A DNA stretch of 64,000 nucleotides from positions 78,602-142,601 of the forward strand of contig PBKA01000019.1 in assembly GCA_002721305.1 (NCBI GenBank), in the 5' to 3' direction. The notes beneath the pieces are model-generated. The model searched no databases and was not told the origin of the DNA. It saw nothing but the letters and a program-made list of their open reading frames with translations. Position numbers and translations under genes: made by a program. This DNA comes from Acidimicrobiaceae bacterium. Lineage in GTDB: Bacteria; Actinomycetota; Acidimicrobiia; Acidimicrobiales; Poriferisodalaceae. This document shows, one piece after another, positions 19,435 to 62,500 of this stretch (positions within the stretch are counted from its first letter, which is position 1; each line of letters begins with the position of its first letter).

Positions 19435-20619
19435 ATGCTGGGGGGTCGCCGCATCGTCCTGGGAGTAACCGGGGGGATCGCCGCATATAAGGCTGTTTTG
19501 CTGTGCCGATTGTTGGTTGATGCAGGTGCGCACGTAATTCCGGTAATGACGGAGAGTGCACAAAAGTTTGTCGGTCGAGCCACGTTTGATGCCTTGGCTT
19601 CAGAACCCGTCCGAACGTCAATCTTTGATGACGTTGATCCGATTCCACATACCACCCTTGGGCAAACAGCGGACCTTATTGTCGTAGCCCCAGCGACGGC
19701 GCGTTGTATTGGTAGCTATGCGAGTGGAATTTCCGATGATTTGCTTACAGCGATTCTCGTCGCTACTCGAGCCCCTGTTGTCGTTTGTCCCGCCATGCAC
19801 ACCGAAATGTGGGAACACCCGGCCATCCAAGAGAATCTCAAGACCTTGGTCGACAGAGGTGTGATTGTTGTCCCAGCTGAGGAAGGACGATTAGCCGGTG
19901 GAGACGCTGGCGCTGGTCGTTTAGCGGCCCCGGAGACCATTTTTGACGCCGTCAAGGGAGTGTTAATTGCCGGAGATCTGCAAGGCAGAAAAGTGCTGGT
20001 CACAGCGGGTGGAACCCGAGAAGCGATAGACCCGGTGCGTTATGTGGGCAACCGGTCCACCGGCAAGCAGGGCTACGCAGTTGCTGAAGCAGCCCTAGCA
20101 CGTGGTGCCGATGTCACTCTAATTTCGACGGTCACGATGGAAACCTCAGCAGGTATCGAAGTTGTGGCCGTTGAGTCGGCTCGACAAATGCATGAAGCTG
20201 TGCTGGAAAGAGCCGAAGCCGACGTGATTGTGATGGCCGCAGCGGTAGCAGACTTTCGTCCGACAGATATTTCAGACTCCAAGATCAAAAAGAACGAAGG
20301 ACTACCCGAAGTATTGCTTGAGGAGACAGCAGACATCTTGACCGATTTGGGCGGCGCCAAGCGACCTGGGCAAGTAATTGTCGGGTTCGCTGCGGAGACT
20401 GATGACTTGATTGCTCATGCAAAACAGAAACTAGAACGAAAGAATATTGACGTCATTGTCGCCAATGACGTCTCGGCTCCCCGCGTTGGGTTCGCCCACG
20501 AGACGAATGAAGTAACAATCCTTGAAGCCGACGGATGTCAGAGGCATGTTTCTCTTCGGTCTAAGCGACAAATTGCCGACGAAGTGTTGAATACGGTCAT
20601 CCAAATACTTGCAAGATGA
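19435..20619 (+). CDS. coaBC: Bifunctional phosphopantothenoylcysteine decarboxylase/phosphopantothenate-cysteine ligase
   Basis: VLGVTGGIAAYKAVLLCR, CPAMHTEMWEHPA, VTAGGTREAIDPVRYVGNRSTGKQGYAVAEAA. Confidence 0.97.
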   Translation: MLGGRRIVLGVTGGIAAYKAVLLCRLLVDAGAHVIPVMTESAQKFVGRATFDALASEPVRTSIFDDVDPIPHTTLGQTADLIVVAPATARCIGSYASGISDDLLTAILVATRAPVVVCPAMHTEMWEHPAIQENLKTLVDRGVIVVPAEEGRLAGGDAGAGRLAAPETIFDAVKGVLIAGDLQGRKVLVTAGGTREAIDPVRYVGNRSTGKQGYAVAEAALARGADVTLISTVTMETSAGIEVVAVESARQMHEAVLERAEADVIVMAAAVADFRPTDISDSKIKKNEGLPEVLLEETADILTDLGGAKRPGQVIVGFAAETDDLIAHAKQKLERKNIDVIVANDVSAPRVGFAHETNEVTILEADGCQRHVSLRSKRQIADEVLNTVIQILAR

Positions 20620-45668: not shown

Positions 45669-45738
45669 AAACCTCCAAATGTCTCGACACAGAGTAGATA
45701 CCCGGAGAGAATCTTGCTTGTGAGAATCTGAGACCTGG

Positions 45739-48141
45739 TTACTCCAGAACGCCTGCTATCACCAGGTCCGCAATCTGGTCTCCGTCGTAGCCCAAGAGAT
45801 CACTCAGAATCTCGAAATTGTGCTCACCCCACAACGGCCCACTCCTTGTAGGTGTCCCGTCGCTCCTCGACAAGCGAAAACCGTATTGTTCAGCCCACGT
45901 TGTGTCGTAAATCTCGTGTGGTACTTCAACAAAATGGTTGCGGTGGATCAACTGCTCATCGGATGTAACTTCGGGGCTGTTTTGAACCTGATGGGCCGGA
46001 ACCCCGGCGGCTTGCAGAAATTCAGTAGTTTCTGCGGCATCTCGGGGAAGACACCAATCCTTCAATATTTGATCCAGTTCCTCTTCTCTCTCAAGACGTT
46101 CAGGTACTTCAAGATTCGCTAACTCATCTTTGCCTATCGCTTGAGCCAGGGCTTGCCACTGCCCGTCGTCTTCGCAAGCGATAGCGACCCATTCGTCTTT
46201 TTCGCCATGAGCACATTCGTATACCGAATGAGGTGCCATCCACCGGTCAGCATTTCCCATCCTGCTTTGGGCAAATCCATTGACCTCTTGATCAAGGACT
46301 GCTTCAGTCAAGAAGTGAATACCGCCTTCTGCTTGTGAAAAGTCGAGCAGCATCCCTTCACCCGTGCGTTCTCGGTAATCAAGGGCCGCCATGAGTAGTG
46401 CCGCAGTGAGACGTGGGGAAGTGGCATCGGTGTAAGCCAGGAAGGGACCCGCCGGTAGCCGGTCTGCCCAACCAGTCAATTCGTAATAACCGCCAGTGGC
46501 TGCACCCATGTTTCCGAAACCGGGAATGGGAGACAAAGGGCCACTTTGTCCGAAGAGGGTCGTCGAACAAACAATCAGATGGGGGTTGGCTTCGAGTAGT
46601 TCTGAAGGGCTGAGTCCAATCCTGTCGAGCACACCCGCTGAAAAGGCGTTGACAACGATGTCGCTCTTAGCTGCTAGATCCAGAACGACTTGGCGTGCCT
46701 CGGGGGCTTTCAGATTGATTTGGAGACTTTCTTTGTGCGCGTTGATTGAGTGCCATTGCTGACTGTTCTCCGGGCCGTCCAGATCTTCAGGGTCCCGACT
46801 TAAGCCCGAGGTACGTACTTGGTCAGGTCGAGTCTGGGACTCCACGCGGATGACACGGGCTCCGTAGTAGCCCAACATGCGGGTGGCGAAGGGTCCGGCG
46901 TACACCCACGTGAAGTCAAGCACGGTAACGCCTTCGAACGGGAGCTTGTCAGCTGCTGGGGTGGGTTTCACTGTTCGGATATCGCGGTTCTCATTCAACA
47001 CTTCCTGGGTGTGTTCGCCCAGCAACGGAGGTCTGCCAAGCCGCTTAACCGCCATGGGAGTTCCATGAGCCCAAGGTCCCGGAAATCTCACCTTTTTCCC
47101 GACCTGGTCTACTTCGACTTCATCCCAGAACTCTCGCTCGGCGTAGTGGGGTGTTTCAAGAACATCTTCGGGAGTGATGACCGGAACCAAGAGAAGTTTG
47201 TCTCGTTGAGCCATAGCAAAAAGATCATGTTTGCTGTGGGAACGGAGCGCGTTGGCTAGGCATTGAGCCGTCCGCTCTGTGATCGACGCGACGTCTTCGA
47301 CGGCTCGGTCAGTTAACAAGTCGGTCCAATCGAGTCCGTAGAGGTCTTCGTCTAGGTGTCCTTCTTCGTTCACCCACTCAAGCAAGCGGTTCGTAAATGA
47401 CCCAACCAGAACACCCGGTAGGAAAGTAATTGTGACGTGACCGTCGGCGCACTCGTAGACGAAGCGAAATTCAACCATCCCCAATAATTCGAACCCACCA
47501 CCAGTTCTTTGAGCTGGGGGATTTCCGCACAAGGAGGGCGTGAGCCACCCTTGGGCTGTCAGGATCATTGCTTCTTGAGCAGAGACGTCTACATGCTGTC
47601 CCATGCCGCTCACCCTTCGTTCCGTTAATGCGATGAGGGCGGCACAAGCAGCCTCAGACCCAGCGTTAACCCACACTTGAGGAGCTGAAATGCGCACTGG
47701 CGCCCGATCCCGGTAACCGTTGAGCGACATTGGGCCGGCTGCTGCATTGAGAGTGAGATCTGTCCCAAGCCAACTTGACTTGGGACCATCATCTCCAAAG
47801 TTGCTCAATGAAACCGTTACGAGCGACGGGTTGATCGAACGAAGCGCCTCTAGGTCGATCTCCATTGCACCGCATTCGATGACAACGTCGGCGGTACGGG
47901 CGAGTTCCAACAACTGTTCTGACTTGTCCACCACAACCGATCGTTTACCTCGGTTATAGGCCCAATGTTGAAGTGAGCACTCTGGATTTTCGTTGCCGCC
48001 GGCGAATGGCGCGAGGTGCCGGGAACGTTGGCCCCCTGGCGGTTCGACCGCAATGACGTCGGCCCCCAACTGAGCGAGCAAAAAGCCTGCGAAGTGGCCC
48101 CGATCATCTGTTAGATCCAGCACACGATAATGCGACAACAT
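45739..48141 (-). CDS. Tandem-domain class III CoA-transferase (two fused CaiB/BaiF domains)
   Basis: Two CaiB-type halves: MLSHYRVLDLTD...LLAQLGADVIAVEPPGG and FEGVTVLDFTWVYAGPFATRMLGYYGARVIRVES; GQHVDVSAQE and GEGMLLDFSQAE; C-half AYTDAT catalytic Asp. ORF extends to 48162; ATG 48141 preferred. Confidence 0.92.
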   Translation of the reverse strand: MLSHYRVLDLTDDRGHFAGFLLAQLGADVIAVEPPGGQRSRHLAPFAGGNENPECSLQHWAYNRGKRSVVVDKSEQLLELARTADVVIECGAMEIDLEALRSINPSLVTVSLSNFGDDGPKSSWLGTDLTLNAAAGPMSLNGYRDRAPVRISAPQVWVNAGSEAACAALIALTERRVSGMGQHVDVSAQEAMILTAQGWLTPSLCGNPPAQRTGGGFELLGMVEFRFVYECADGHVTITFLPGVLVGSFTNRLLEWVNEEGHLDEDLYGLDWTDLLTDRAVEDVASITERTAQCLANALRSHSKHDLFAMAQRDKLLLVPVITPEDVLETPHYAEREFWDEVEVDQVGKKVRFPGPWAHGTPMAVKRLGRPPLLGEHTQEVLNENRDIRTVKPTPAADKLPFEGVTVLDFTWVYAGPFATRMLGYYGARVIRVESQTRPDQVRTSGLSRDPEDLDGPENSQQWHSINAHKESLQINLKAPEARQVVLDLAAKSDIVVNAFSAGVLDRIGLSPSELLEANPHLIVCSTTLFGQSGPLSPIPGFGNMGAATGGYYELTGWADRLPAGPFLAYTDATSPRLTAALLMAALDYRERTGEGMLLDFSQAEGGIHFLTEAVLDQEVNGFAQSRMGNADRWMAPHSVYECAHGEKDEWVAIACEDDGQWQALAQAIGKDELANLEVPERLEREEELDQILKDWCLPRDAAETTEFLQAAGVPAHQVQNSPEVTSDEQLIHRNHFVEVPHEIYDTTWAEQYGFRLSRSDGTPTRSGPLWGEHNFEILSDLLGYDGDQIADLVIAGVLE

Positions 48142-48200
48142 CCAAGCCCCCCGGTTCTTCAATCACCCGAAAGCATGATCGTAGTGTCGACCTTCAGCGC

Positions 48201-48231
48201 AAGTCGACAGAACATGCTGAACTGTCGACTT
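48201..48231. promoter_or_regulatory. Perfect 10-bp inverted repeat in divergent promoter region (candidate operator)
   Basis: AAGTCGACAG-aacatgctgaa-CTGTCGACTT; extra GTCGAC half-site at 48186-48191. Confidence 0.6.
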
Positions 48232-48245
48232 ACTCCGAGGAACAT

Positions 48246-49814
48246 ATGACTGAAGAAGAAAAAGAGAGCGTAAAGGACCCCGTCGCAGATTTACACGAAC
48301 GGCAACGACGTATTCGCGAAGAAATGGGTGGAGCGGACAAGGTCGCGAAGATGCGACAAGAAGGAACTCCCACTATCCGAGATCACATAAACGGTGTCTT
48401 AGACAGCGAGTCATTTCGCGAACTTGGCACGCACAGCCGATCGATGCGCCTCGAGGATCGACACAACACTCCTGGTGACGGCAAAGTCGGAGGTGAGGGT
48501 CGAATTGATGGCCGCCCTGTCGCCATTGGCGGGGATGACATAACTGTCAAGAAGGGCTCCAGCGCGATTGTGGGCGGTCGACGGATGCACCGCATTTACG
48601 ATCGTGCTCTTGAACGCGGCATGCCATACGTGTACATCGGAGAAACCGGCGGAGGTCGGATTCCTGACCTGATTGGGGCGGAAGGCATAGCCGATGTGGC
48701 ACCAGACCCCGAGCTGGCGCAAAGGCGAAGGCAAATCCCGATGGCGACCATGATCGTTGGTCAAAGCTTCGGCGGCTCATCATTCCAATCGGCGTTCTCT
48801 GACTTCGTAGTGCAGGTGCGCGGTTCGGTTTTGGCTGTCACTTCGCCCAGAGTTTTCGAAGTGGCAACCGGCGAAATTATTGGATTCGAGGAGCTAGGTG
48901 GAGTTGATGTCCACTCCCGAATCACGGGCCAAATTGATCTGGGCGTAGATACTTTTGAAGAAGGCTATGTAGCGGTTCGGAGGTGGCTCTCATATCTCCC
49001 GTCGAACGCGTGGACGACCGCGCCTCGAAGCGACTTTCGAGTTGACCTGAGACCGGACGATTCGCTGGCCGAGATGATCCCGTTGAAGAGAACCCGTGGA
49101 TATGACATGCGTCGGTTTAGTTCAGCTCTTTTGGACCCTGGCACGTTCATGGAGTTACAACCCGGATACGCCCGTAACCTCACCACTGGTTTAGGAAGAC
49201 TCGATGGTTTTTCTGTCGGAATTATCGGTAACAATCCCATGTTTAACGCCGGGGTTTTAGATCCGGAAGCCTGCCGCAAAGCTGTTCGGCTGATGTGTCT
49301 TTGTGACGCGTTTAACTTACCGGTCATCTTCTTGATGGATGTCCCCGGCTTTATGGTGGGAAAGGCCGTTGAACACGACCGGATTCTGTCCCTAGCGATT
49401 CGTTTCGTTGAGGCGTTAGGCAACATGTCCACGCCGACGTTGACGGTGACGCTCCGTAAAGGTTTCGGGCTGGCGTTTCCCGCTATGAACGGTTCCGGTC
49501 TGGGATCATCAGGTTTGTATTCGTGGCCTGGAGCAGAAATTGGCTTCATGGATCCAGATGTTGGGGTCAACGTTGCATACGCATCGAGACTTGAGCAGTT
49601 GGATCCCTCAGAGGCAGATGCTGAGCGAGCCAGAATGATCTCAGAAATCTCATTAGCAACTTCACCATACGAGGCGGCGGGAACTCTTCGAATCGATGAA
49701 GTAATTGATCCCGCTGACACTCGAAGCGTTCTTGTCGAGGACCTCCGACAACTAGAGGGCCGTCGTGTACCTCCGCCAGAGGAGAGACCGCTCAGCTATT
49801 GGCCTACTGTTTAA
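48246..49814 (+). CDS. Acyl-CoA carboxylase carboxyltransferase subunit
   Basis: 522 aa; two crotonase-like halves; FLMDVPGFMVGKAVEHDRILSLAIRFVEAL, LTVTLRKGFGLAFPAMNGSGLG, WPGAEIGFMDPDVGVNVAY. Confidence 0.9.
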   Translation: MTEEEKESVKDPVADLHERQRRIREEMGGADKVAKMRQEGTPTIRDHINGVLDSESFRELGTHSRSMRLEDRHNTPGDGKVGGEGRIDGRPVAIGGDDITVKKGSSAIVGGRRMHRIYDRALERGMPYVYIGETGGGRIPDLIGAEGIADVAPDPELAQRRRQIPMATMIVGQSFGGSSFQSAFSDFVVQVRGSVLAVTSPRVFEVATGEIIGFEELGGVDVHSRITGQIDLGVDTFEEGYVAVRRWLSYLPSNAWTTAPRSDFRVDLRPDDSLAEMIPLKRTRGYDMRRFSSALLDPGTFMELQPGYARNLTTGLGRLDGFSVGIIGNNPMFNAGVLDPEACRKAVRLMCLCDAFNLPVIFLMDVPGFMVGKAVEHDRILSLAIRFVEALGNMSTPTLTVTLRKGFGLAFPAMNGSGLGSSGLYSWPGAEIGFMDPDVGVNVAYASRLEQLDPSEADAERARMISEISLATSPYEAAGTLRIDEVIDPADTRSVLVEDLRQLEGRRVPPPEERPLSYWPTV

Positions 49815-50666: not shown

Positions 50667-53078
50667 CTACTCGAGAACCTCGGAGGCGGCTAAGTCAGCG
50701 ATCTGGTCCACGGAGTATCCCAACAGTTCACTCAGTACTTCGAAATTGTCTTCTCCCAAACATGGTCCTCCGCGGTTTAGGACAGCGGGCGTACGCGACA
50801 TTTTTGTTCTGCACGAGTGAGTCCACATCGTGCCCGCATGACTTTGCGGAACTCGGACCTGATGTTGGCGATGAGCTAGTTGCGGGTCGGAGTTGGTTCC
50901 CGCGGCATCATGCACCGGGTAGGCCGCCACTCCCAAGGCCTGAAGTTCCTCTGCTGCAGTCGTGCTATTGCGAACCGATGACCAGGCACCAAGAGCGTCA
51001 TCGATTACCGACTGATGTTCACGACGCGTTGTTTGGTCGGCGTCGAAGAGATCGTTGAGTCCCAACAATTCGGCCAACTGGGACCAACTTTCGTCAGAGC
51101 ATGCGATTGCCAGCCATGAGTCGTCGCCTTCGGCCGGGAAAACGCCGTGAGGGAAAATATTTGGGTCGTCGTTTCCTTGTCGCTGAATTGTCCTCCCATT
51201 GACGCTTTGATCCAATATTGCTGGGGTCAGGTAATGCAGTGCGCACTCAGTTTGCGACAAATCAATGTGTTCACCAACTCCTGTTTCCCTGCGTCTTTCC
51301 AACGCGGCCATGAGTGATGCGACAACGATCCGTGGAGCCAGGAAATCTGTGTACGGACCGTAAGGACCCGCTGGTGGCCGATCAGCCCAACCAGTCAACT
51401 CGTAGTAGCCAGCTATGGCAGCAGCCATGAATCCATATCCAGCGAGGCTTGAGTGGGGACCACTTTGCCCAAGCAGAGAACTCGAAAGCATTATTAAGCC
51501 CGGATTGATTTCCGAGAGCACTTCGTAGCCGAAACCCAAGCGACCCATAGCCCCTGGAGCAAAAGATTCGGTAGCGATGTCGGCCCACCTGATCAGGTCA
51601 AAGACCACCTCTTTTGCCTCAGGCTTGCTGAGATCAAGACTCAGGCTGCGTTTCCCCGCGTTGTAGACGCCGTAACCCACACTGTTATCAGGGTGAGGGT
51701 CCTCGTTGACAAACGGATTCACGGTTCTCATGGTGTCGGGATGGCTTGCGGTCTCTACCTTGACGACCTCCGCTCCGTAGTCACAGAGGATTCGAACGGC
51801 GGAAGGTGTTGCGATCACCCACGAGAACTCGACAACCTTGAGTCCCTCTAGCGGCAAAGAATCGATGACGGGATCTTTAACATCAAGGCTTCGGGTTCGT
51901 TCCACTGAGAAGGAGTTGTTGTGTTGGCCAAGCGTGGGGGGGATACCCCCAAAATCGACTTCGTTGTTCTTGAACTTCACGAGACCACCGGGATACTTCG
52001 CTTCGCCACCTTTCCCATCTGGCTGGATGTCCCAAAACTCCCGAGCCTCAAGATGCTCGTAATCGACGAGATCGGCAATAGTCATAGAAGGCGTAATGAG
52101 AAGGTTGCGCTCTAAAGCCGCCTCCCACAGCTCCATTTTCGATTTAGAGGCAAGGAAACGGCCATAAGTGGCAAACGCATTAGCGACGACATCAAAGCTC
52201 ACCTCCCCAGCGAACAACTGGACCCCAATGTTGTCCCAGTCGATCGATTGCAGGTTCTCGTCAACAGCGCCTTCTTCTTCCAACCAAGCTGTGAGCCGAC
52301 GAGAAAATGGGGCGAAAGCCGCTCCTGGCAGGATGACGCAAATGGTGTAACCATCAAGACATGGGAAGAGAAGTGGAATGTCCATTCCGGCGAGGCTGAT
52401 TCCACCGGCCATCCGATCAGCAGCTAAAGCGTTTTCCATTGGGGCCACGTTCTGGGGAAAGCCAATCGTCACTGATTCTTGGGCAGAGACATCGATGTGC
52501 TGTCCGGCCCCGCTTCGGTAACGCTCCTGCAAAGCGATCAAGCTGGCAGCCGCAGCGTCCGCTGCGGCGTGAAGGAAGCTGTGTGGCACGCCGACTCTCA
52601 GCGGGGCCCGATCTGCGTCGCCGCTTGCGTGCATGAAGGAGCTTCCCGCTACCGCTGTTAGGTCAGATCCCAACCAATGAGAACGCGGTCCAGTGAGACC
52701 ATAAGGAGTGATGGAAGCATGAATAATTTCGGGATTGATTTCTGCGATCTCTTCATATGAGAGCGCAAGTGACCGTAAATAGCCCGGATGCCGATCTTCG
52801 AACAGAATGTCAGCGTTTTGAACCAAATGATGAAACCTTGCGCGGTCTTGCTCTGATTCGATGTCTAAGACAACGGATTTCTTTCCTCTGTTGTACGCCC
52901 AATGCGTCAGGCTGAAGTCCGGGTTCGGTTCATCCGCGACATATGGCCCTGTGTGACGGGTCGAAACCCCTTGAACAGGCTCAACAGCAATCACCTCAGC
53001 GCCAAGACGAGCCAGTATGTGTCCCGCAAACTGGCTTATTCCATCGCAAAGATCAATAACGCGGATGTGCTCTAGCAT
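50667..53078 (-). CDS. Tandem-domain class III CoA-transferase, paralog of 45739-48141
   Basis: MLEHIRVIDLCDGISQFAGHILARLGAEVIAVEP...AGQHIDVSAQES...LEGLKVVEFSWVIATPSAVRILCDYGAEVVKVET...PYTDFLAPRI...HIDLSQTE; same C-terminal signature as the first copy (NFEVLSELLGYSVDQIADL). Confidence 0.92.
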   Translation of the reverse strand: MLEHIRVIDLCDGISQFAGHILARLGAEVIAVEPVQGVSTRHTGPYVADEPNPDFSLTHWAYNRGKKSVVLDIESEQDRARFHHLVQNADILFEDRHPGYLRSLALSYEEIAEINPEIIHASITPYGLTGPRSHWLGSDLTAVAGSSFMHASGDADRAPLRVGVPHSFLHAAADAAAASLIALQERYRSGAGQHIDVSAQESVTIGFPQNVAPMENALAADRMAGGISLAGMDIPLLFPCLDGYTICVILPGAAFAPFSRRLTAWLEEEGAVDENLQSIDWDNIGVQLFAGEVSFDVVANAFATYGRFLASKSKMELWEAALERNLLITPSMTIADLVDYEHLEAREFWDIQPDGKGGEAKYPGGLVKFKNNEVDFGGIPPTLGQHNNSFSVERTRSLDVKDPVIDSLPLEGLKVVEFSWVIATPSAVRILCDYGAEVVKVETASHPDTMRTVNPFVNEDPHPDNSVGYGVYNAGKRSLSLDLSKPEAKEVVFDLIRWADIATESFAPGAMGRLGFGYEVLSEINPGLIMLSSSLLGQSGPHSSLAGYGFMAAAIAGYYELTGWADRPPAGPYGPYTDFLAPRIVVASLMAALERRRETGVGEHIDLSQTECALHYLTPAILDQSVNGRTIQRQGNDDPNIFPHGVFPAEGDDSWLAIACSDESWSQLAELLGLNDLFDADQTTRREHQSVIDDALGAWSSVRNSTTAAEELQALGVAAYPVHDAAGTNSDPQLAHRQHQVRVPQSHAGTMWTHSCRTKMSRTPAVLNRGGPCLGEDNFEVLSELLGYSVDQIADLAASEVLE

Positions 53079-53199
53079 CCCGCCCCCTCGTTCCCCAAGA
53101 GCATAGGTTCACCGTCGCCCAGCAGTTGAAACTTTGGCAGTCACGGTCGGGGAGGGAACAAGTCCACCGCAATACTTCAGATGCGAATAGCCTCATGGA

Positions 53200-54033
53200 A
53201 TGGGAAAGGTCTTCAGCACCAGTCAAATCAAACAATACGAATCGGATGGATGGATTTCACCGGTCGATGTGTTTACCGAAGAGCAGGTGAGCGACTGTCG
53301 AACACGATTGGAGGCATGGGAATCAATGCGGGGAGGACACCTCCCACCGCACGAACGATCTGGGGGGCACATATTGTTCCCGTGGATTGATGATCTCATG
53401 AGGAACGACACAATTCTCGATGCTGTTGAAGATTTGATTGGGCCAGACATTCTGTGCTGGAGTTCGGTGTTTTGGATTAAAGAACCGCAGAGTCCAAGCT
53501 ACGTGGGGTGGCACCAAGACCTGCAGTACTGGGGGCTCTCTAGCTCCGACGTCGTTTCCACATGGATAGCGCTCAGTGATGCCAGTGAGGACGCGGGATG
53601 CATGAGCATCATTCCGGGTAGCCATAAAGAAGTTCTCGACCATGAAGAGACCTACGCAAAGGACAACCTGTTAAGTCGAGGGCAGGAACTCGAAATAGAC
53701 GTGACGCAACGCGAAACTATTCCAATGCCGTTGAAGCCGGGGCAAGTCTCATTTCACAATGTTCGGACTGCCCATGGTTCAGGCCCGAACACCACAAGTG
53801 ATCGACGCATCGGGCTTTCGTGTCACTACATGCCGACCTCTACCGAACAGACATTGAGTGAATGGGACAGCGCAGCGTTGGTGCGGGGAGAAGACCAATA
53901 CAACAACTTTCAACACTGCCCACAGCCCGCATATGACCTAGAACCAGCAGCAGTGGACTTTCATAAACGAGCAGCCGACACAATGAGGCAAATCATTTAC
54001 AAGGGTGCTCGCACTGACGAACGAACACTTTAG
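53200..54033 (+). CDS. Phytanoyl-CoA dioxygenase (PhyH) family protein
   Basis: VGWHQDLQYWGLS (HxD), SIIPGSHKE, SFHNVRTAHGSGPNTTSDRRIGLSCHY. Confidence 0.92.
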   Translation: MGKVFSTSQIKQYESDGWISPVDVFTEEQVSDCRTRLEAWESMRGGHLPPHERSGGHILFPWIDDLMRNDTILDAVEDLIGPDILCWSSVFWIKEPQSPSYVGWHQDLQYWGLSSSDVVSTWIALSDASEDAGCMSIIPGSHKEVLDHEETYAKDNLLSRGQELEIDVTQRETIPMPLKPGQVSFHNVRTAHGSGPNTTSDRRIGLSCHYMPTSTEQTLSEWDSAALVRGEDQYNNFQHCPQPAYDLEPAAVDFHKRAADTMRQIIYKGARTDERTL

Positions 54034-59537: not shown

Positions 59538-62500
59538 TCACCCCTTCGCCGCCGCCATCACAGCTTCTTCGATGTCCTGGCCGTGTTCTTCTGCCGTGGC
59601 GATTGCGTCCAGGACTCGCCGGTAGTCCTTTGGCATGACTTTTTTGAAGGAACGGACATGTTGATGCCAACGATCAAGAATTGTTGAAGCGACGGTCGAG
59701 TTTGTTTCATCAAGGTGACGTCGAATGATGTCTCGAAGCGCATCGGCGTCTTCTTCGGACAACGAACTTTCTAGGTCCACCATCTCGGTGTTGAGATTGC
59801 GATGGAACTCGTCGTCGGGATCGAAAATGAATGCCACTCCACCCGACATTCCCGCGCCGAAGTTTCTGCCGGTAGCGCCGAGAACGACGACGATTCCCCC
59901 GGTCATGTATTCGCATCCGTGGTCGCCGACGCCTTCGACAACCGCTGTTGCCCCCGAGTTTCGGACGCAGAAACGTTCACCCACTACTCCTCGGATGTAA
60001 GCCTCGCCTCCGGTCGCGCCGTAGAGGATGACGTTTCCCGCGATGACGTTTTCTTGTGCAATGAAATCTGGGGAGGCATTTCTTGGCGGTCGAAGGGTAA
60101 TTCGACCGCCGGATAGCCCTTTACCCAAGTAGTCATTGGCGTCTCCGCACAGACGCAGGGTTATGCCTTGCGGGACGAAGGCACCAAAACTTTGACCCGC
60201 TGAACCCGTCAACTCGATGTCAATTGTGTTGTGAGGTAGTCCGTCACCTCCGTAGGTCTTGGTGAGGTGATAGCCGAGCAACGTCCCGACGGTGCGATTG
60301 ACGTTCGAAACAGGCAGTTCGATCCGGACCGGGGATCCATCTTCCAGTGCCGGTTGAGCGTGCTGGATGAGCTCCTGGTCTAGGGCTCTGTCTAATCCGT
60401 GGTCTTGGTCTTGGGAACAGAAGCGGTCTTGTTCCCAAGGAGAGGTGGGTACGTGAAGAATTGGGCTCAGGTCGAGACCATCGGCTTTCCAGTGATTCAC
60501 AGCGCGGTCGACGTCGAGACAGTCAACTCTGCCTATTGCTTCTTCGACTGAGCGGAAACCGAGCTCAGCCAAATATTCCCTTACTTCTTGAGCTACATAT
60601 TCGAAGAAGTTGACAACGAACTCCGCTTTGCCGGTGTATCTGGCTCTGAGTTCCTTGTTTTGAGTCGCCACACCGACCGGACAGGTATCGAGGTGACAGA
60701 CGCGCATCATTATGCATCCCGATACCACCAACGGTGCCGTGGCAAACCCGAACTCTTCGGCGCCGAGCAGGGCTGCGACTATGACGTCTCGACCGGTCTT
60801 CAATTGCCCGTCGGTTTGCACCACTATTCGGTCGCGGAGTCCGTTTATTAACAGGGTTTGTTGAGTTTCAGCTAAACCCAGTTCCCAGGGTCCACCCGCA
60901 TGTTTGAGTGACGTGAGTGGTGAAGCGCCGGTGCCACCGTCATGGCCTGAAATGAGAACCACGTCGGCTTTGGCTTTGGAGACACCTGCGGCCACTGTTC
61001 CGACTCCGACCTCCGCTACCAGCTTGACGTGGATTCGCGCTTCAGGGTTTGAGTTCTTCAGATCATGAATGAGTTGTTTTAAGTCCTCAATTGAGTAGAT
61101 GTCGTGGTGCGGTGGCGGTGAAATCAGACCAACTCCCGGGGTGGAATGACGGGTCTTCGCTATCCACGGCCACACTTTGGGGCCCGGTAGTTGGCCGCCT
61201 TCACCAGGTTTTGCTCCTTGAGCCATCTTGATCTGAATGTCGTCGGAGTTGACCAAATATTCAGACGTCACCCCGAACCGGCCCGACGCCACTTGTTTGA
61301 TGGCTGACCTTCGGGAGTCACCGTTGCTGTCTAGTATGAACCGCTCCGGGTCCTCACCCCCTTCGCCGGTGTTGGACTTCGCCCCTAACCGGTTCATGGC
61401 GATGGCAAGCGTCTCGTGTGCTTCAGCTGAGATGGACCCGTAGCTCATCGCGCCAGTCGAGAATCTCTTCACGATGTCGCTCACAGGCTCAACATCGTCG
61501 ATGGGGATCGGGCCATCGTCGTTGGGGGTCAGCCTGAATAATCCCCTAAGTGTCGCTAGTTCCTCTGATTGTTTGTCTACAAGTTTGGTGTATTGCTTGA
61601 AAAGTTCGTACTGACCCGTACGTGTCGAATGCTGAAGCCGGTAGACCGTCTCTGGGTTAAATAAGTGAAATTCGCCCTCTCGCCGCCACTGGTACTCGCC
61701 GCCCGACCACAGATCTCGATGAGCTACTTCTTCAGGATTCTCCAAATACGCGAAGCGGTGCCGAAGCGCTACCTCTTCGGCAATCACATCAAGATCAACG
61801 CCCCCCAGTTTTGAACTTGTGCCGGTGAAATAGTCGTTGATGACTTGGTGAGAGAGGCCCACGCACTCAAATACTTGTGCGCCTGTGTAACTGGCAACGG
61901 TGGAAATCCCCATCTTCGACATGATTTTGAGGACACCTTTGGAACAAGCTTTGATGTAGTTCCGAACCGCTGTTTTGCTATCGATTTCTGTAATTGCGCC
62001 TTCCTCAATCAGATCTTCGATTGATTCGATAGCGAGATACGGATTGATGGCCCCAGCTCCATAACCGAGCAGCAGTGCCATGTGATGCACCTCTCGAGCG
62101 TCACCACATTCGACCACGAGCCCGACTTCAGTTCGGGTGCGATTACGCACCAAATGATGATGGACGGCGCCTGTGAGTAAGAGAGATGGAATCGGAGCGT
62201 TCTCTGCGTTGCTGTACCGGTCGGACAAAACGATCACTTTGGCGCCGTCAGCGATCGCGTCAGAGACTCTTGCTTGAATGTCCTCGATTGCTTTTTGCAT
62301 TCCCGCGCCACCTTCGGCAACGGGATACAGGCCGTCGATCGCGAATGACTTGAATTGGGGATGGTCGTCGTTTTCGTTTAGATACAGGACCTTGGCGAGG
62401 TCCTCATTGGAGATCACCGGGTGGGGGAGAACGATCTGTCGGCAAGATTCCGGACCGGGTTGCAGCAAATTCCCCTCTGGGCCTATCACCGAAGATGTTG

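Follow-up and report, generated by a model that had tools for sequence, protein, structure and literature searches.

The window, meaning the whole stretch of 64,000 nucleotides analysed here, contains an acyl-CoA island in which a CoA-transferase gene and a carboxyltransferase gene diverge from a short intergenic region. The start of the CoA-transferase lies at an ATG at 48141 or a TTG at 48162 (- strand). Between the two genes, which flank it in the orientation described in an earlier note on this DNA, lies a perfect inverted repeat. The features of the region are as follows:

45739-48141, - strand: double-domain class III CoA-transferase (CaiB-type), PF02515, 800 aa, the divergent neighbour (from ORF and domain)
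48186-48191, no strand: third GTCGAC, shared by only 3 of the 16 orthologous loci
48193-48241, + strand: conserved block TTYAGCG ... GAGGA, core of a putative carboxyltransferase promoter/5' leader (from alignment A1), with one match in its own genome
48201-48231, no strand: perfect 10-bp inverted repeat AAGTCGACAG-N11-CTGTCGACTT, an exact match here and retained without mismatch in 3 of the 16 loci
48211-48221, + strand: spacer AACATGCTGAA, consensus AACRTGMTGAA, the least variable part of the repeat (diversity 0.122)
48237-48241, + strand: Shine-Dalgarno-like GAGGA, invariant, 4 nt before the ATG (from sequence and ortholog alignment)
48246-49814, + strand: acyl-CoA carboxylase carboxyltransferase-type protein, PF01039 (Carboxyl_trans), 522 aa (from ORF and domain)

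The island also holds SDR, PhyH, D-2-hydroxyacid dehydrogenase, second double CoA-transferase, VOC-like, and DUF3237 genes, the VOC label being assigned by eye. Both double-domain class III CoA-transferases (45739-48141 and 50667-53078) are ~800 aa long with two CoA_transf_3 stretches each, and two PhyH dioxygenases are encoded alongside them in the island. Searching the literature for this gene set returned nothing relevant. According to record titles, the close relatives are marine Acidimicrobiia metagenome-assembled genomes (MAGs). Carboxyltransferase homologs of ~70% identity were also found at L056, L058, and L061, in MAGs labelled Pseudomonadales/Gammaproteobacteria, which suggests either transfer or mis-binned contigs.

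The letters at 48201-48231 read AAGTCGACAG-aacatgctgaa-CTGTCGACTT, an exact dyad symmetry of the kind looked for in an operator. The 10-bp arms and 11-nt spacer, the 14-nt gap from the end of the repeat to the carboxyltransferase ATG at 48246, and the further GTCGAC at 48186-48191 are all as first reported. This specific sequence occurs once in the window, where 0.01 occurrences are expected, and a scan of the 1.94 Mb genome that allowed up to 3 mismatches over 18 bases gave no other copy. As a class, perfect inverted repeats with arms of at least 10 bp and spacers of 3-20 nt number four in the window, against a dinucleotide-shuffle mean of 0.95. The other three (20449-20472, 60085-60110, and 60410-60439) all fall within long ORFs and act as a chance control. 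Given this count and the location of the others, the repeat is notable by its place and not rare as a kind.

Orthologs of 84-97% identity, from the same genus and family, provided upstream sequence from 16 loci, which align over 64 columns without gaps. Identity in 10-column windows over 48191-48249 is 0.71-0.90, compared with 0.35 at four-fold sites of the carboxyltransferase gene and about 0.48-0.6 in the adjacent intergenic DNA (about 0.5 at 48150-48170). As its identity lies far above both, the block is under purifying selection. The conserved stretch (~48193-48245) extends up to the carboxyltransferase ATG, such that selection reaches the start codon and takes in the Shine-Dalgarno-like element. 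The earlier note had proposed looking for the repeat upstream of orthologs, and the outcome is divided: the region is under purifying selection in all 16 loci but its symmetry is lost in eight. The best 50-column mean identity is 0.84 here vs. 0.80 at the PhyH2 start and 0.78 at the SDR start, for species sets that overlap only in part, so the block exceeds its neighbours in conservation by no more than a small margin. No comparable block lies upstream of the paralogous carboxyltransferase on contig C25 (62% identity).

Within the block, sequence and symmetry have fared differently. Diversity across the 16 loci is 0.12 for TTTAGCG, 0.229 for the left arm, 0.122 for the spacer, 0.241 for the right arm, and 0.00 for GAGGA, with 0.56 in the left flank. 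The best-kept parts are hence TTYAGCG, the spacer with its TGNTGAACT, and GAGGA, with the arms less so; TGNTGAACT is invariant save for one base. Ten Watson-Crick pairs between the arms are found in three loci, 8-9 in five, and 3-6 in the remaining eight. In the near-perfect members L033, L036, L037, and L039, every substitution relative to the perfect form weakens or breaks a pair, and none is compensated. On this comparison, the sequence of the block is conserved and the symmetry of the palindrome is not.

The block is linked to the carboxyltransferase by a locus (L048, in G005) from which the divergent CoA-transferase is missing, yet ATGATGAACTGTTGTCTTACCCCTAGGA is kept before the carboxyltransferase (model E 4.5e-6). 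Since the 3' part survives there, at least this part of the block is tied to the carboxyltransferase. At L050 and L051 little is left beyond a ATGAACAGTC-like core. In all three of these loci the divergent CoA-transferase is missing or has moved away and the carboxyltransferase leader is altered correspondingly.

The reading held with moderate confidence is that a real palindrome lies within a conserved but ordinary gene-start region and is itself probably incidental. The repeat would sit in what is putatively the conserved core promoter, 5' leader, and ribosome-binding region of the carboxyltransferase (about 48193-48245). What keeps the block in place would be RNA polymerase together with the ribosome, or else a factor specific to the locus that recognises sequence and not symmetry. 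The perfect palindrome would then be a lineage-specific, probably incidental product of the block sequence in one subclade. As relatives keep a start region of ~50 bases without the palindrome symmetry, accident is its most likely origin. Counting against this reading, eight of the 16 loci still have a palindrome of 8-10 pairs, and conservation is slightly higher in the block than in its neighbours.

The promoter itself can be described in terms of candidate elements on both strands:

48178-48183, - strand: candidate -10 TACGAT (TANNNT type) for the divergent CoA-transferase, proposed from alignments read by eye
48182-48187, + strand: candidate -10 TAGTGT for the carboxyltransferase, tentatively proposed from sequence and lost in several orthologs

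The CoA-transferase candidate reads TATGAT and is shifted by about 9 nt in L041, L044, L046, and L059, which form one clade. If TAGTGT did serve as a -10, RNA might start near 48192 and the whole block would be leader, a tentative suggestion. Alternative candidates on the + strand are TAGCGN and the extended TGN-TGAACT, with TAGTGT and TAGCGN each failing in some orthologs. A local sigma-70 scan found no canonical -35/-10 for the carboxyltransferase gene, and no TANNNT hexamer on its strand is shared across the full set of orthologs, which leaves the promoter reading tentative. A de novo search for promoter motifs over 193 upstream regions gave no usable motif. Elsewhere in the island, a conserved CAGATNCGAATAGCCT lies immediately before the PhyH2 start (53170-53202), with a TANNNT hexamer (TAGCCT) at roughly leaderless-transcript distance; this placement suggests that PhyH2 may be a leaderless gene. 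Before the SDR gene (45669-45738, - strand), a conserved GTATCTACNCTGTG carries a TANNNT-like -10, after which comes a short leader containing TTGGAGG.

The earlier note held that the geometry suits the operator of a dimeric repressor or activator. In this scenario, confined to the genus and its nearest relatives, a regulator encoded elsewhere binds both arms and controls the two divergent genes. The site does lie between divergent genes, its two GTCGAC-bearing arms have centres 21 bp apart, about two helical turns, and eight of the 16 loci retain perfect or near-perfect symmetry (8-10 of 10 pairs). The spacer of an operator is usually free to vary. Here, however, it is better kept (0.122) than the arms (0.229 and 0.241), the arm substitutions go uncompensated, symmetry is lost in the other eight loci, and the third GTCGAC is not conserved (3 of 16). 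The suggested genome scan for the exact and relaxed repeat produced no convincing second site. Relaxed matches number 35 in its own genome vs. 22 for a reversed control, and the next best has 2 mismatches; matches at this level resemble chance or coding matches. One relaxed match recurring in relatives (G000 C6:19788, G003 C20:122821, and G002 C28:38563) varies like coding sequence when inspected by eye. A sequence model of the block (R1) likewise matches its own genome once and gives a single strong match in every other searched genome that keeps the gene with such a leader, the rest being weak (best E 0.0125). The block thus occurs once per genome and defines no regulon, although the single site leaves room for a single-site operator. 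Two of the weak matches were considered as second copies and rejected, L138 because two convergent genes have their 3' ends close to it and L137 because no obvious conserved gene lies downstream. Consistent with the observation that the island lacks a regulator gene, none was found nearby. A search for TetR and GntR genes found four TetR genes, all on other contigs, and no GntR gene. An operator at this site is regarded as unlikely.

A further possibility concerns translation, as the block can be read as containing a short open frame:

48214-48249, + strand: possible 11-codon leader ORF with an ATG/GTG start in the spacer and a TGA that overlaps the main ATG (ATGA), from sequence and orthologs

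Ribosomes on this mini-ORF could feed or gate the carboxyltransferase start through the ATGA overlap. The RTG, the open frame, and the overlap are kept without indels in 16 of 16 loci. By eye, the frame continues into the main ORF at L048 and stops just before the start at L050 and L051. However, an open frame in all rows has a P of about 0.2 by column shuffling, there is neither a synonymous pattern nor a third-position excess, and no Shine-Dalgarno directly precedes the RTG. Coupling of this kind is considered improbable. A more elaborate version, in which the block forms a cis-acting leader that only the carboxyltransferase has and whose upstream ORF (uORF), starting from AACRTGMTGAAC and ATGA-coupled, senses the translation or metabolite state in marine Acidimicrobiia, is quite improbable. 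A longer carboxyltransferase, extended at its N-terminus through the block, was rejected by eye, as the frame is closed by TAG/TAA with no ATG/GTG/TTG between in most orthologs.

The suggestion of a 10-bp RNA hairpin near the ribosome-binding site, by which the 5' leader would control translation or stability of the carboxyltransferase mRNA, has a conserved loop sequence and a predicted stem probability of 0.93-0.98 in L002, L032, L033, L036, and L038 in its favour, but is very improbable, as the stem probability is at most 0.17 in eight of the 16 orthologs, there is no covariation above shuffles (the percentage paired is reached by 104 of 500 and the covariation score by 60 of 500), such a stem is absent from the RNAalifold result, the region folds no better than shuffles (z -0.76), and no Rfam family is matched at its curated score. 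An alternative pairing of GTCGAC-TTCAGC with GCTGAA-GTCGAC appears in the minimum-energy fold; according to the alignment it cannot form in most orthologs.

The incidental palindrome within a conserved gene start is retained as the preferred reading. The finding carries little weight overall. It illustrates that a striking perfect palindrome in one genome can arise as a side effect of a conserved promoter or leader, with ortholog comparison revealing that it is the sequence that is selected. If the leader is regulatory, it would offer a way to study how uncultured marine actinobacteria control this uncharacterised acyl-CoA island.

Operators of TetR-type repressors are inverted repeats with half-sites spaced near a whole number of helical turns. 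The present repeat resembles them in this spacing and in lying between divergent genes, but differs in that its symmetry is unconserved, its spacer exceeds the arms in conservation, it is a single site, and no linked regulator is seen. Translationally coupled uORFs (PMC12548453, PMC11260477) share with the candidate leader ORF a short upstream frame that overlaps the main gene by ATGA; the candidate, a predicted frame, differs in lacking peptide-level conservation. Bidirectional bacterial promoters (PMC12825309, PMC10268837) are resembled by GATCGTAGTGT, which has overlapping TANNNT hexamers on both strands, although the + hexamer here is lost in several orthologs. In M. tuberculosis, a TANNNT -10 precedes the majority of primary start sites and no -35 is conserved, and the transcription start site map of this species describes TANNNT promoters with short or absent 5' leaders (PMC3898074). 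The carboxyltransferase has a GAGGA ribosome-binding site; it departs from this pattern in that its strand is without a universal TANNNT. Other start regions of the island, read by eye, share TANNNT-like hexamers with the mycobacterial pattern, with TACGAT before the CoA-transferase, TACNCT before the SDR gene, and TAGCCT before PhyH2.
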